Assembly (NCBI RefSeq): GCF_017792025.1
Contig: NZ_CP046956.1
Location: 3,906,001-3,970,000, forward strand
Source of the DNA: Sediminibacillus dalangtanensis
GTDB taxonomy: Bacteria > Bacillota > Bacilli > Bacillales > Amphibacillaceae
Direction of reading: 5' to 3'
DNA: 64,000 nt
The first letter of the stretch is position 1. Every line of letters begins with the position of its first letter. Position numbers and translations under genes: made by a program. Shown in pieces: positions 1,444 to 57,213 of this stretch. The notes beneath the pieces were generated by a model. The model was not told the origin of the DNA and did not search any database. It saw nothing but the letters and a program-made list of their open reading frames with translations.

Positions 1444-3269
1444 CGTTTGTCACCTCCGCTTCTTTTGATAAGCGGCAATGTAAAATGGACGGTCGTCCCC
1501 TTACCTTCTTTACTTTCTGCCCATATGTGGCCGTGATGGGCTTCAATGATTTCTTTGGCGATTGCCAGGCCGAGTCCTGTCCCGCCCAGGTTCCGGGAGC
1601 GGGCCTTGTCAGCCCGGTAGAACCGGTCGAAGATTTTGTCCACCTTTTCCTGGGCAATCCCCATGCCCTGGTCGGTGATCGACACCTTCAGTCTGTTGCG
1701 GTTATTGACCACCCGGAAGGTGATCCGGCCGCCATCCGGCGAATACTTAATCGCATTGGAGATGATATTATCGACTACCTGGGTCAGTTTGTCTTTATCC
1801 ATCCACACAAAAAATTCTTTGTTTGGAAGCTTCCGGTCGAGAATGATTTCTTCGGCTTTATTCATTTCAAAACGGTCGATGATATGGTGGAAAAACGTGA
1901 TGAAATCGACCCGTTCCATGTAAAGATCGGTTGCCTTGTTATCCATTTTGGAAAGCTGCAGCAAGTCATTGACCAGCCGGATCATCCGGTCTGTTTCGTT
2001 TTGCGTCACATCGAGAAACTTCGGAGCAATTTCTTTGTCCTCCCAAGCACCATCCGTCAGTGCTTCCAGGTAGCTCCGCATCGTCGTCAACGGTGTCCGC
2101 AGCTCGTGTGAGACATTGGAGACAAACTCTCTTCTTTCCTGCTCGACTTTTTCCTGTTCTGTTACATCACTGATGACGGTAATAAAGCCGCCAAAATTCC
2201 CCTCTTCATCCTGTATCACCGAGAAATTCGCCTTGATTAAAAAGAATTCTTCGTCATCACTGAAGTCGATGGTGACCGATCCAGTGTCAGCCTGCATGTC
2301 ATCATCGATTTCGTCTTCTAAATGCAGCACCTCGATCAACGGCTGGCCCTTCACTTCTTCAAAATCTTTGCGAATCAGCTGGAGAGCCGGTTCGTTCATC
2401 AAGGATACTTTTCCTTCTTTGTCCGTCGCAATGACTCCGTCCGACATGTTGGACAAGACGGAGCTCAACTTACGGCGTTCTCCCTCGGTTGTGTTATGTG
2501 CCTGCTTCAATTTGTCATTCATATCATTGAAGGTCATTGCCAGCTGACCGATTTCATCGGTGCCATAGACGTTGACCGTTTGGGAAAAATCTCCGGTAGA
2601 CATGATTTTGGCCTGTTTCCGCATTTCGGTGATCGGTTTGGTAATGGTGCGCGCGACCAAAATCCCCAAAACAATGGAAATGGCGATGGCAATTACGGTC
2701 CCTTTGGCAAAAATATCATTGATGTTGCCCATTTGGTCGTAAACATCTTCCATCGAGGCTTCCAAATATAGAATCCCGTCCGGGTCCTCCTCGCCTCCTA
2801 TCGGCAACACGCGTACTTTCATCCGGTTGTTGGTCTCTGGATCGCGCATGGTAGTGTTTTCTTCCACACCGAAAATCAGTGCCCGGGTGATTCGCGGATC
2901 TCCTGTTTTACGGCTGCCGATAATATTGCTGTCAATTTCATTTTTAGCTCCGATTACCCGATACTGCCTGTCCAATACTTGAAGGGTAGAAAAAACACTG
3001 CTGTCGACCCGGTCGAGAATGTTCTGAACATCCTCCTGCAAGGTCGGACCTTCTTCGTCCTCGCTTCGTTCTTTCTGGAAAGCCTGTTCCAAATAATAAC
3101 TTAACCCTTCAATCCGTTCTTCGACCGTATCGTTCAAATTCTTTTTTAAATTTTCTTCCAGCCGGATGGCAAAATAGGATCCAATCACTTGAATTGCCAA
3201 TAACAGCAGCAAAATATAGATAAGGACAATTTTAAATCGGATCGACTGGAAAAAACCGACTTTCTTCAT
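1440..3269 (-). CDS. walK: Sensor histidine kinase WalK (YycG)
   Basis: The 609-residue kinase of the essential WalKR system controls cell-wall hydrolase expression. Two membrane helices (about 13-33 and 188-206) bracket an extracytoplasmic sensor domain. They are followed by a HAMP domain (about 207-258), a PAS domain (about 262-370), a HisKA domain with phospho-acceptor His388 in the motif SNVSHELRTPL, and a HATPase_c domain with the G-box GGTGLGLAIAKEI near residue 565. Domain order and length match WalK of Bacillaceae. It starts 6 nt after the walR stop and overlaps yycH. Confidence 0.97.
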   Translation of the reverse strand: MKKVGFFQSIRFKIVLIYILLLLLAIQVIGSYFAIRLEENLKKNLNDTVEERIEGLSYYLEQAFQKERSEDEEGPTLQEDVQNILDRVDSSVFSTLQVLDRQYRVIGAKNEIDSNIIGSRKTGDPRITRALIFGVEENTTMRDPETNNRMKVRVLPIGGEEDPDGILYLEASMEDVYDQMGNINDIFAKGTVIAIAISIVLGILVARTITKPITEMRKQAKIMSTGDFSQTVNVYGTDEIGQLAMTFNDMNDKLKQAHNTTEGERRKLSSVLSNMSDGVIATDKEGKVSLMNEPALQLIRKDFEEVKGQPLIEVLHLEDEIDDDMQADTGSVTIDFSDDEEFFLIKANFSVIQDEEGNFGGFITVISDVTEQEKVEQERREFVSNVSHELRTPLTTMRSYLEALTDGAWEDKEIAPKFLDVTQNETDRMIRLVNDLLQLSKMDNKATDLYMERVDFITFFHHIIDRFEMNKAEEIILDRKLPNKEFFVWMDKDKLTQVVDNIISNAIKYSPDGGRITFRVVNNRNRLKVSITDQGMGIAQEKVDKIFDRFYRADKARSRNLGGTGLGLAIAKEIIEAHHGHIWAESKEGKGTTVHFTLPLIKRSGGDKR

Positions 3270-7868: not shown

Positions 7869-8342
7869 ATGAGTAATGATTCAATTATTCAAATGTGGGA
7901 GGACTATCGAAAAATTAATCCAGATGCACCAAAGGATTATGAGGCATGGGCATTTGGTGATTAAAAAGAAATGGCTAATGAGCTTTCAAATTTAGTTTTA
8001 GAAGGAATAAAAACAGCAACAGCATCAAACTATACGTTATATGAATTGGAAAACGAGACATTACCGTTTGTTGGTCTTCATAATATTATTCTCGACGGGG
8101 ATGGAGAAGCTGTTGGAATAGTAGAAACTACATCAGTAAAGGTTGTTCCGTTTGATGAAGTTACCGCAGAACACGCATATTTGGAAGGTGAAGGTGACCG
8201 CACATTAAGGTATTGGCGTGACGTTCACGAAACCTTCTTTAAAAAAGAGTTTAAGAATATAAATCAAGAGTTCAATTACAAAATCCCTGTTGTTTGTGAA
8301 AGGTTTAAGCTAATTTATAAGAAAAGTGCGTTGTCCCTATAA
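7869..8342 (+). pseudogene. ASCH-domain protein, interrupted by an in-frame stop codon
   Basis: The frame starts with an ATG at 7869 (weak AGTAGG site upstream) and encodes MSNDSIIQMWEDYRKINPDA and AWAFGD. It meets TAA at 7962-7964, then continues in the same frame as KEMANELSNLVLEGIKTATAS to 8342. The joined 157-residue product reads as a complete ASCH (PUA-like, RNA-binding) protein; relatives I recall have Ser at the stop position, a one-base TCA to TAA change. The ATG at 7971 has no convincing ribosome-binding site, so a truncated product is unlikely. The gene is on the opposite strand to its neighbours and is more AT-rich than they are. Its cellular role is unknown. Confidence 0.75.
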
Positions 8343-8347
8343 ATTTT

Positions 8348-8382
8348 TTCTTCAACTATCGGGGGCGTTAGGTCAACAAGAA
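8348..8382 (+). repeat. attC-like imperfect palindrome (site A)
   Basis: Starting about 9 nt after the ASCH stop codon, TTCAACTATCGGGGGC is followed by GTTAGGTCAACAAG, two arms that pair imperfectly. It aligns in the same orientation with three sites at 33.5-35.0 kb (consensus TTCAACTAACGGGTGC then GTTAGTTGAAGAA). Confidence 0.6.
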
Positions 8383-19910: not shown

Positions 19911-20150
19911 TTAAAAAAACTTCCCGCCCCCTACGATTTTGGTAAGGGGCGAAAAGTTATCACTCACGCGGTACCACCCTTTTTCACTGTCTTCCAACAG
20001 TCTTCATTGGCGCCATGCGTAACGGGCATGAAGCGGGCAACCCTACTGAGATTCAGCTTGCCTATTCCGAAGTGCTATTCCATAACAGCAGCACTGGTTC
20101 CCACCAACCACCAGCTCTCTGAAGTCTGCCGATTACCGAACTTGTCTTCA
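19911..20150 (-). promoter_or_regulatory. Serine-specific T-box riboswitch
   Basis: On the minus strand the leader shows the Stem I signature AGAGAGCTGGTGG with GGGAACCAG. The specifier region GAATAGCACTTCGG has codon AGC (Ser) at complement 20074-20076. The antiterminator T-box AGGGTGGTACCGCG lies at complement 19967-19980. The terminator hairpin CGCCCCTTACC/GTAGGGGGCG with a T7 tract lies at 19911-19951. Uncharged tRNA-Ser would favour antitermination and expression of the aminotransferase and serA. Confidence 0.93.
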
Positions 20151-20185
20151 TCACCATATTTATGTAACAACTTGAATTTTTATTT

Positions 20186-21835: not shown

Positions 21836-22083
21836 TTCATGCAAGGACAAAAGCGCAAGCGCCTGTTTAAAGGAGTACAGGCTAGAGCCGCCACGTCTTG
21901 TGGCAACGCCTGCATACCCACATCGTGTGGGCCTCCGACAAGCTTAAGCCCACCCTCGGCGTGGCGCTTTTTGCCACACAGAGGGGGCTTAAGACCTCGA
22001 GGGGGTAGGCGGCTGGAGCTGAACGTGGCTGTTTCAGACAATAATTATCCACAGTCAATTAAAGTTATCATTTCCTATAAAGC
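21836..22083 (+). repeat. Dispersed repeat family R2, longest copy
   Basis: It runs from AAAAGCGCAAGCGCC to GGCGGCTGGAGCTGAACGTGG, with nested inverted repeats (GCCACGTC/TGTGGC, ACAAGCTTAAGCCC with GGGGGCTTAAGACC). The conserved tail ATAATTATCCACAGTCA and TTATCATTTCCTATA follows. A perfect DnaA box lies at 22045-22053. Copies or parts occur at 15228, 54065 and 57005. The open frames inside are not genes. Confidence 0.8.
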
Positions 22084-33061: not shown

Positions 33062-33486
33062 ATTTGCTCCTCCAAGTCGCTCTATTTTTCTGCTTTCAGT
33101 GAGTAGTTCTTATATGCCCCGATCAGTCGCTGGACAAACCTATGTAACGAAATAGTTAACAAATTGTATTACTTTTGATTTGAACCGTTTTCAAATAAAT
33201 TTGAATCCCTTATTATGGAAGACAATACACTATATAATGTTTGGACAGTCTTCCTGCAATATTGATGATTGCAAACTTACTTTTAGCGTAGTTTAAAGAT
33301 GGAGTTTTCACATTTGTTACCGCTTAATAGGATAATACAGTTTTTGCTCGATAATGCGACAAACGGTTAGACACTCGAAATTCACTTTATAGGTTTATGC
33401 TGAAAAGGTTCGTGTGGATCAATCTATATAGTGTTTATGTAGCATAACGATCACAATGATGTGTAATTTTTCATGTGGATATCTCT
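33062..33486. other. AT-rich non-coding stretch left of the cassette-like island
   Basis: No ORF with a ribosome-binding site was seen. It contains scattered TATAAT-like sequences (for example near 33232) but no clear promoter pair. It may be a decayed remnant; I see nothing specific in it. Confidence 0.4.
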
Positions 33487-33518
33487 TACTCAAGTAACGG
33501 GCAGTATTGTTGAAGAAG
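33487..33518 (+). repeat. attC-like imperfect palindrome (site B)
   Basis: CTCAAGTAACGGGCAG is followed by TATTGTTGAAGAAG. It aligns with sites A, C and D in the same orientation and lies about 30 nt before the hydrolase start. Confidence 0.55.
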
Positions 33519-33548
33519 CAAATAACGATATGAGGGGATAAATAAAAA

Positions 33549-34382
33549 TTGAAAAGGTACATAATTAATGACGGAGAAATCAATGTACACGTAACAGAAT
33601 GGGGCAGTAAAAATAAACCTGTAATTTTTTGCTTACACGGATTAGGAAGTACAAGCCTAAGTTTTATTGAAATCGCAGAAGAACTAAAGAATGATTATAG
33701 AATTTTTAGTATAGATGCTCCTGGTCACGGTAAAACAGACGTGTTTCATCGTGTAGAAAGTTATGAAATGCCGGCATTAGCAAAATGGTTGGATAATATT
33801 ATCGGAATTCTAAAAATTAAAAAGTTTTATTTTTTATCCCATTCTTGGGGAAGTTTTGTTTCTTTATTCTATATACTTAATTATTCTGAGAAAGTGTTGG
33901 GGACAATTCTAATTGACGGTGGCTACCAGACCAAAAGAAGAAATTCTACTTCAATACAAGAAGAGATTGAGTATTACGAAAAGGATTTTGAAGAGTATGT
34001 AGAGACTTGGGAAAAGTTTTTGGATGTGGCTGTCTTTGGTGACTCCATAAGAACACCACTATTAATGACTGCGGCGAAGGATTTAGCCCTTGTTAAGGAT
34101 GGAAGGTATTATTGGCACGCAAGGGGAAAAACGGCTGGTAACATTATTAGAGGTATGCACAAAGATGAAACGGAGGATATTTATGAAAACCTCCCTAATA
34201 ACTTAAATATCTTATTACTCCGTGCAACCCTTCCTAAGTCACAAGATGCGTATAGGGATTTAACTTCAGGCATATTAGAACAAAAAACAGGAGCAACTGT
34301 AAAGTTAGTTCCTAATGTTTCTCATATGTTACATTGGGATAATCCAGAAGTTGTAATAAAAGAAATAAAAGAAAGATGGTAG
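33549..34382 (+). CDS. Alpha/beta-fold hydrolase
   Basis: The 277-residue alpha/beta hydrolase has the oxyanion segment LHGLGSTSLSF, IDAPGHGKTD and the nucleophile elbow SHSWGS (Ser near residue 97, with Ser in place of the first Gly). The C-terminal catalytic His is in NVSHMLHWDNPE. The substrate is unknown. It starts at TTG 33549 with GAGGGGA about 10 nt upstream. Codon use is clearly more AT-rich than in the flanking core genes, and the gene is on the opposite strand, which suggests transfer. It is flanked by palindromic sites B and C. Confidence 0.82.
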   Translation: MKRYIINDGEINVHVTEWGSKNKPVIFCLHGLGSTSLSFIEIAEELKNDYRIFSIDAPGHGKTDVFHRVESYEMPALAKWLDNIIGILKIKKFYFLSHSWGSFVSLFYILNYSEKVLGTILIDGGYQTKRRNSTSIQEEIEYYEKDFEEYVETWEKFLDVAVFGDSIRTPLLMTAAKDLALVKDGRYYWHARGKTAGNIIRGMHKDETEDIYENLPNNLNILLLRATLPKSQDAYRDLTSGILEQKTGATVKLVPNVSHMLHWDNPEVVIKEIKERW

Positions 34383-34388
34383 TTGGGT

Positions 34389-34422
34389 TATTCAACTAAC
34401 GGGTGCTTATCTGTGACAAGGA
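34389..34422 (+). repeat. attC-like imperfect palindrome (site C)
   Basis: TTCAACTAACGGGTGC followed by TTATCTGTGACAAGG begins about eight nt after the hydrolase stop. The left half is the consensus; the right half is degenerate. Confidence 0.55.
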
Positions 34423-34608
34423 GAACAAGACCCTTTTGCGTTAAAGAGGCAGATTTGTTCAATAAGAAATCACAAAAGGAATGAGCTTTTACTGTGAAAT
34501 AGGATTAGACGTATCTTAACGGCTAATAGAAACAATAATGCAAAAATTTGAGATGAAGCACATTAGTATTATTACTGGACATAAATAAAAAATATATGGA
34601 GGTATAGT

Positions 34609-34893
34609 ATGTGGGTAATATTAGGCATTATTGCTATAGTAGCAACTTTTATAAATCTTTATATGTATAAAGCAGGAAAGGATTATAAGCTTGCTATGGC
34701 GATGGGATTATCATTTACAGCATTAACAATTTGTGCAGATTACAGTTATCTAACTCGATGGGTAAAAGTGGAAGATTGGGCGGCTTTATCGGATGTAATA
34801 CCTGGTATGGCTAGGGCATTATGGTTTTTGACAATTGTTTCTATCTTACTAAATATAGCACCTATACTTTTAGAACTAAAAAGCAAGAAATAA
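34609..34893 (+). CDS. Small membrane protein of unknown function
   Basis: This 94-residue protein has three hydrophobic segments (about 2-20, 28-46 and 68-88), separated by a short loop with YLTRWVKVEDW, and a basic C-terminus (ELKSKK). It starts at ATG 34609 behind GGAGG at good spacing. I do not recognise the family. It is AT-rich, on the plus strand, and lies between sites C and D, so it looks like the second member of the small accessory array. Confidence 0.7.
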   Translation: MWVILGIIAIVATFINLYMYKAGKDYKLAMAMGLSFTALTICADYSYLTRWVKVEDWAALSDVIPGMARALWFLTIVSILLNIAPILLELKSKK

Positions 34894-34937
34894 TTACTTA
34901 TTGTCACTTCATTTATATCATATGCAATTATTGTGTA

Positions 34938-34977
34938 GGTCTTGATGTATAACTAACGTGTGCGTTAGTTGAAGACC
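34938..34977 (+). repeat. attC-like palindrome with bulge (site D)
   Basis: Left arm GGTCTT-GATGTAT-AACTAACG and right arm CGTTAGTT-GAAGACC are perfectly complementary except that the left arm carries GATGTAT where pairing needs a single C. The result is a long hairpin with extrahelical bases. It lies 45 nt after the small membrane protein gene. Confidence 0.7.
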
Positions 34978-35184
34978 AATTTATTTATCGGAGCCAAAAT
35001 AAGCGTTATTTTATTCATTTTAATAGACGATCACAACATTTCTCACTGTTACTTTTAGTTTAGATATATGCCACGTTCATCATTCTACTATTTAGCTAAA
35101 GACGCTTACAGGATAGCATTCGTCCAAATAAAAAAGCAGCAGGCATTGAAGCAGAAAAAGGCACTATTACATTGCTTTATAAAC

Positions 35185-57004: not shown

Positions 57005-57213
57005 ATAATATTAAGTGCCTGTGAATCATTATTGGCAGGGACAGTCTCATCAAGCTCCAGCGCCTACCCCCTCGAGGTCTTCAGCCCATCCTCTGTGTGG
57101 CAAAAAGCGGCACGACAAGGCTTGTCTTAAGCTTGTCGGAGGCCCTCGCGATGTGGGTCATGCAGGCGTTGCCACAGGACGTGGCGGATTTAGCCTGAAA
57201 GGAAGCAAGAATA
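57005..57213 (-). repeat. Dispersed repeat family R2, diverged copy
   Basis: TGCCTGTGAATCATTATTGG is a decayed tail in which the DnaA box is lost. It is followed by AGCTCCAGCGCCTACCCCCT, CGAGGTCTTCAGCCC, TGTGTGGCAAAAAGCGGCAC, CTTAAGCTTGTCGGAGGCC and a right end GCAGGCGTTGCCACAGGACG that matches the 21890-21915 segment inversely. The frame across it is not a gene. Confidence 0.75.

Follow-up and report, generated by a model that had tools for sequence, protein, structure and literature searches.

A putative gene-cassette system native to Bacillales and its remnant in Sediminibacillus dalangtanensis

Integrons (IntI, attI and attC), among them the chromosomal integrons of Vibrio, hold arrays of small single-gene units that run in one direction, carry a tyrosine recombinase on the opposite strand with a site before its gene, and are broad in accessory content, with plasmid and chromosomal forms. 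In the Xer/dif and Cre/loxP systems, inverted arms of about 11–13 bp flank an asymmetric spacer of 6–9 bp, and exchange occurs within the spacer. Passages of the IntegronFinder 2.0 paper (PMC9024848) describe integrons as rare in Firmicutes, with one complete example (Limnochorda pilosa) and a few clusters of attC sites lacking integron-integrases (CALIN). Here we analyse repeated sites around two genes of Sediminibacillus dalangtanensis, in a stretch of 64,000 nucleotides (NZ_CP046956.1, positions 3,906,001–3,970,000; hereafter the window). We are fairly confident that they are the remnant of a gene-cassette system native to Bacillales, with an Xer-like recombinase proposed as its enzyme. This reading is drawn from sequence alone, namely from a site family, its arrays and their orientation, the position of the recombinase, the ends of shared segments and breakpoints in spacers. 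The system shares the traits listed above with integrons, and the arm-and-spacer layout with dif and loxP.

The window contains five half-sites of the family, all on the + strand and scoring 21.7–31.2 bits against a matrix of two half-site types (Table 1). Thirty Markov-shuffled windows gave a single site above 12 bits (13.2). Both this matrix and the covariance model R1 used below were built from loci of other genomes. The initial annotation had described three attC-like palindromes in one orientation before, between and after two genes. The repeated sites around the genes are real. The middle one, however, is a composite of an L and an R half, of which the left half had been seen; the outer two are single half-sites, and the site at 8347 has to be added as the fourth in the window. 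R1 matches the composite end to end (34387–34468, E 3.9e-7), whereas this composite model gives just E 0.15 for the single half-site at 34944 and E 0.32 for that at 8347. The L half of the composite starts 5 bp past the stop codon of the first gene. In the site at 33485–33520 the left arm is CTTACTCAAGTAA, the spacer CGGGCAGT and the right arm degenerate; by eye, its AAGTAACGGGCAG core is similar to the recombinase-proximal site of loci L207 and L208. A right arm near GTTAGTTGAAGAA is found, of the two single half-sites that bound the pair of genes, only in that at 34944–34979. The gene that had been called a hydrolase is an alpha/beta hydrolase, and the small membrane protein has 94 amino acids and gave no match in a Pfam scan at E 0.001. 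As annotated, the pair lies between noc and rsmG, where an ATP-grasp gene is also found. An Rfam scan of the window returned no RNA family at the sites.

Table 1. Sites, genes and island of the cassette family in the window
Feature	Position	Strand	Evidence
Simple site before first cassette	33485..33520	+	Matrix 21.7 bits; single half-site
Cassette gene 1: alpha/beta hydrolase, 277 amino acids, TTG start	33549..34382	+	Open reading frame; PF00561 77 bits, E 1.8e-21
L half of composite site behind hydrolase gene	34387..34422	+	Matrix 26.6 bits
R half of composite site before gene 2	34433..34468	+	Matrix 25.4 bits
Cassette gene 2: predicted membrane protein, 94 amino acids, hydrophobic	34609..34893	+	Open reading frame
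L-type simple site behind gene 2	34944..34979	+	Matrix 29.5 bits; single half-site
Isolated L-type site, fourth site of family in window	8347..8382	+	Matrix 31.2 bits
Island between ATP-grasp gene and rsmG	33201..35173	.	BLASTN of sister loci L214-L217

The window sites are decayed members of a family widespread in the order. Two simple site types make up this family, L (CAACTAA-CGGGTGCT-TTAGTTG) and R (GAACTAA-CGGGGCAGG-TTAGTTG), in both of which inverted arms enclose a short spacer. Their full consensus sequences are CTTATTCAACTAACGGGTGCTTTAGTTGAAGAAGG for L and CTTATTGAACTAACGGGGCAGGTTAGTTGAACAAGG for R, from which we count arms of about 13 bp and an asymmetric spacer of 8 bp in L and 9 bp in R. 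Unlike Xer/dif and Cre/loxP, the family has hundreds of sites per genome, two site types and an association with gene exchange rather than dimer resolution. L and R are frequently joined as a composite, L first and then R, with start-to-start distances in the 154 composites of the fetched arrays mostly of 50–51 bp (55 composites), 58–62 bp (71) and 106 bp (13). In stretches L174-L193 and L248-L267 these distance groups lie near helical-turn steps. In the same stretches, 44 of 584 sites have a left arm of the form TTGTGAA-N7-ACTTAAA, with a spacing of exactly 7 throughout.

A site pattern allowing one mismatch gave 33 matches in 20 of the 146 genomes of the window's family, two of which (L049 and L050) resemble pieces of a coding gene; the reversed control pattern had no match among the matches listed. 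The GTDB set has 109 stretches with an exact 20-letter pattern, of which the 80 listed all carry the names of Bacillus-like genera (one is a Paenibacillus and one a Brevibacillus). IMG/VR gave no exact match to a 20-letter pattern. With ten candidates scored per genome, R1 matches 184 of the 397 genomes and 76 of the 136 genera of the order. In a phylum-wide draw, 4 of 249 genomes matched, namely three of the order, among them the window's own, and a fourth from the same class (E 5.6e-4).

In related genomes the sites form long arrays. Scoring at most 150 candidates per genome, we counted at least 104 composites in Paenisporosarcina HGH0030, at least 132 in Psychrobacillus OK032, and 74, 29, 65, 62 and 48 in five other genomes; the window's own genome has 1. 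Forty array stretches from four genomes have the make-up expected of a cassette array: intervals mostly hold a single gene, the orientation is uniform and sites follow closely on stop codons, as had been proposed from the window. An open reading frame of at least 45 amino acids is present in 322 of the 329 inter-site intervals of 180–2500 bp, and 282 of these 322 run in the direction of the sites. The median interval is 590 bp and the median distance from stop codon to site 28 bp. By the sites that bound them, the intervals are R-L (193), R-R (74), L-L (38) and L-R (24). The arrays encode 253 distinct cassette proteins. The first 120, when scanned, fell into 67 Pfam families, the commonest (DinB_2) represented by four proteins; anti-phage models matched 1 of the 120. 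The products include acetyltransferases, phosphotransferases, SUKH immunity-like proteins, hydrolases, a chloramphenicol acetyltransferase and many domains of unknown function.

Short inverted repeats in many copies might instead belong to a non-coding mobile element of the miniature inverted-repeat transposable element (MITE) type that inserts beside genes, the genes merely hitchhiking. Isolated single sites would fit such an element, for instance the site at 8347 and those in four further places of the window's genome (among 29 pattern-selected 3-kb loci). It would, however, be expected in both orientations, yet neighbouring half-sites are co-directional in 641 of 649 cases in the 109 loci of the GTDB scan. 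Moreover, what different arrays share is the genes between the sites and not the sites alone. We give a MITE-like origin a very slim chance.

A Pfam PF00589 search of eight genomes identified a tyrosine recombinase of about 280 amino acids (279 residues) inside the arrays and on the strand opposite to them; Xer-like and phage-like matches were also returned. All 71 sites listed in ten fetched loci, partly chosen for having sites, are opposite to the recombinase strand. In a less selected set of ten 2–3-kb stretches, taken by protein identity alone, five stretches contain sites, ten in all, and every one is opposite. Twelve copies of the gene were available, from the ten fetched loci, a second copy in L211 and the plasmid locus L292. 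In 5 of the 12 (L175, L207, L208, L209 and L292) an R-like site of more than 18 bits lies 64–72 bp before the start codon, and on visual inspection degenerate R-like sites can be made out in five more (L178, L181, L210 and the two copies of L211). Where present, the site is beside the recombinase gene with the array on the other side, an attI-like layout. The whole module is duplicated in HGH0030 (99.2% identity over 1273 columns), and the duplication is bounded by an L and an R site.

The recombinase scores above the PF00589 cut-off, and R138, K162/K165, H228/R231, H254 and Y263, which we take to be the catalytic residues R..K..HxxR..H..Y, are invariant or nearly so in 32 sequences. In a tree, the 18 array-type rows form one group (support 87/85), apart from a second subfamily and from the rows that we label Xer. 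Genomes with the recombinase or a fragment of it (at least 47% identity) number 88 of 397 among the matches listed. Sites are present in 68 of these 88 compared with 116 of the 309 without (odds ratio 5.7, p 4e-11, kinship ignored), and in 26 of the 28 genomes with a full-length recombinase of at least 71% identity. In several loci of the second subfamily (L194-L206 and L213), a TTATTCAAC-like half arm lies about 70 bp before the start codon and CCAATTATTTCAAA behind the gene; this subfamily may be a solitary mobile module. Four consecutive PF00589 recombinase genes were seen in Peribacillus deserti (G149:C1:172272-175582).

Segments of at least 92% identity in different arrays have 53 of their 128 ends at sites, where rotated sites lead us to expect 6.9 (maximum 15 in 300 rotations). 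With the identity threshold raised to 97%, the count is 12 of 26 ends (expected 1.8, largest rotation 6). A 1051-bp R-to-L unit, for example, is 99.5% identical in Paenisporosarcina OV554 and HGH0030 and the flanks differ. Site-matched boundaries pair like with like in 42 of 46 cases (20 R and 22 L), and L with R in 4. Within these paired sites agreement changes to mismatch at particular columns. In L, sites at right ends of shared segments agree to column 23 and mismatch from column 24, and those at left ends mismatch to column 9 and agree from column 10. In R, mismatch begins at about column 14 at right ends and extends up to column 15 at left ends. The switch overall falls in columns 9–24 of L and around columns 12–20 of R. 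The exchange is therefore placed within the spacer, or at its border, in both site types. Letter associations between each L and the next R are independent evidence for this: the ten strongest all join L positions 20–35 to R positions 0–12, which lie between the spacers. The ten strongest associations within L or within R are confined to one half or to the spacer.

These breakpoints bear on the view that homologous recombination between short repeats mixes the arrays and that the sites themselves serve expression, as terminators or otherwise. Five consecutive T residues separate the halves in 124 of 154 composites compared with 14 of 148 control segments, repeats of 36–96 bp could allow rare crossing over, and many site-bearing genomes have no recombinase. 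The terminator reading, which the initial annotation had named as able to refute a cassette array, may be partly right in view of the T runs, and leaves the flanking sites and the breakpoints unaccounted for. The breakpoints fall in the two spacers and not across the whole repeat; terminators need neither an R half before genes nor a direction fixed throughout an array, and isolated cassettes of small plasmids are flanked by both sites. We therefore judge this view very unlikely.

The alternative closest to the initial annotation is a true integron, with attC sites folded as single strands and an IntI that has gone unrecognized. Its attractions are the attC-like form of the L+R composites (two inverted core pairs, unpaired spacers and a variable middle), a recombinase gene that runs against the array and is preceded by a site, and the diversity of the small genes. 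The folding tests point elsewhere. When 66 composites were paired as attC-like hairpins, 72.7% of cells were paired compared with 72.8% in shuffles; further pairing tests gave overall z values of −1.3 to 1.7 (one of them in the wrong register), and RNAalifold found no consensus structure for the 66. No covariation following pairing was detected within L, within R, between the halves or across the cassette, and the associations between L and R letters are not complementary. A mechanism that uses folded single strands of attC is accordingly not supported.

The enzyme, too, is not a recognizable IntI. Two of the recombinases reach 224 and 222 bits against NCBIfam NF040815 (recomb_XerA_Arch), above its cut-off of 220; this is a general XerA model, and the words 'integron integrase' in its name do not mean IntI. 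The same two proteins reach 95.9 and 93.4 bits against the integron integrase model TIGR02249 (cut-off 265), and 67.6 and 57.2 bits against PRK15417 (cut-off 435). Among the families listed, an AlphaFold model of the recombinase matches XerA, lambda integrase and XerD a little more closely than it does IntI4, a comparison that is supportive at most because the model is middling (predicted local distance difference test score, pLDDT, 77; predicted template modelling score, pTM, 0.53; last 28 residues below 50). Unlike integrons, in which exchange takes place at the R' box of attC only, the system has breakpoints in L and in R. It also differs in its recombinase, closer to XerA and XerD than to IntI, in lacking hairpin covariation, in the terminator-like stretch between its sites and in its Bacillales hosts. 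With these scores, with pairing equal to shuffles and with both half-sites breaking in their spacers, membership of the integrons is not supported, and we consider a true integron very unlikely. The system is integron-like in its working, but its recombinase is not IntI and its sites show no hairpin covariation, and it is not classed as an integron.

We propose instead that cassettes of the Bacillales system usually consist of a single gene of promoter-to-terminator size, flanked by double-stranded recombination sites of the L and R types. The Xer-like tyrosine recombinase would attach to the arms and carry out strand exchange within the spacer, for the most part between sites of one type (L with L, R with R). 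Exchange would release circular cassettes that could be inserted at other sites, with the R-like site about 70 bp before the recombinase gene a possible entry point. We infer, with good grounds in the case of the enzyme, that this recombinase carries out the exchange, and likewise the cassette circles and the direction of insertion.

Several observations weigh against this proposal. All the evidence is computational, and neither a recombination event, nor a circle, nor strain-level excision was observed. Many shared-segment ends lie off sites: 75 of 128 in the test above, and 579 of 1020 in an earlier, less strict one. For the R ahead of a gene and the L that follows the gene, the strongest letter association was z 5.3 and departed from the spacer pattern. 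Several array loci and array-associated recombinase loci had been selected because they bear sites. The second subfamily, of full-length proteins at 60–69% identity, has sites in just 21 of its 34 genomes, and 116 of the 184 site-bearing genomes, the window's included, have no recombinase match; the same is true of 8 of the 25 genomes at the listed maximum of sites. The island in the window is absent from four sister species, but its junctions are not on its sites.

Plasmids carry the family as well. A 47-base query holding one R site matched 68 plasmid records, in up to 29 places per record; six phage records matched at no more than 60% coverage and were put down to chance. A 30-kb stretch of a Mesobacillus plasmid contains 30 sites above 12 bits, in one direction. 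The Sporosarcina psychrophila plasmid pSP10-266k (L292, 6231-14740) has a full recombinase module and an array with a merR-merA unit. Its recombinase is 84.6% identical, with an R site 70 bp before the start and an L site 906 bp the other way, and 9 of 9 sites are opposite to it.

Among resistance genes, cat of pC194 (L289; 1260-1907, +) is between an L site at 1077-1112 (40.3 bits) and an R site at 1948-1983 (42.0 bits), both on the − strand, and 300 shuffles yielded none of 10 bits or more. Passages of PMC6636781, PMC2440758 and PMC4403831 give cloning primers from the flanks of pC194 cat that match the L and R cores, and these passages contain no remark on the overlap of primer and site. 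In pKKS627 (L288, 2436-3951), two R sites, of 40.1 and 48.9 bits, enclose dfrK (locus 2517-3008), and a MazG-like gene comes next, between weaker sites (24.6 and 28.5 bits); the weakest of seven sites there, at 13.2 bits, is at chance level. One coding sequence of the Klebsiella grimontii plasmid pNY3A (L291, 2378-3038) is between R (50.8 bits) and L (40.0 bits), and may represent cross-phylum transfer or a contaminated record.

A larger claim can be put together from these cases, namely a second, independent kind of integron, with an Xer-derived recombinase and two orthogonal double-stranded sites, spread across Bacillales on chromosomes and plasmids, that delivered pC194 cat and dfrK to staphylococci and one cassette to a Klebsiella plasmid. 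We regard its chances as evenly balanced. No paper on a Bacillales cassette system was found in the open text of PubMed Central (PMC), subscription papers and preprints being outside this scope, and the novelty of the system rests on that text, including passages of PMC9024848 and PMC8618304. If correct, a native, widespread cassette system would account for much of the movement of accessory genes among Bacillales of soil and sea. With two simple double-stranded sites where integrons have one that folds, it would also offer a comparison for how integrons arose, and it would show where known Gram-positive resistance genes, such as those of pC194 and pKKS627, came from.

Returning to the window, neither the island nor family sites occur at the locus in four sister species, which are all the other genomes of the genus. 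The ATP-grasp gene is matched by all four sister loci too. An empty site at rsmG was sought in these genomes, but their intergenic DNA is unrelated in other respects, so that no clean junction was found. The window's genome has two PF00589 matches only, both grouping with the Xer rows of the tree, and the same search gave no array-type recombinase. We read the two cassettes as an old deposit in a genome from which the recombinase has gone; this piece is probably a small, abandoned part of the cassette system.

Relatives of the 94-residue protein occur in 90 of the 397 genomes of the order. Family sites are near 12 of the 29 that were fetched (window excluded), upstream of 10, downstream of 7 and on both sides of 5, all in the direction of the gene; the other 17 have no site within 1.5 kb. 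Upstream of the isolated site at 8347, a gene-like stretch at about 7869-8340 is interrupted by an in-frame stop and is probably a decayed cassette gene. Elsewhere in the window, Rfam identified a T-box leader at 19942-20163 (−) and two Bacillaceae-1 RNAs, at 21866-21931 (+) and 57143-57209 (−).
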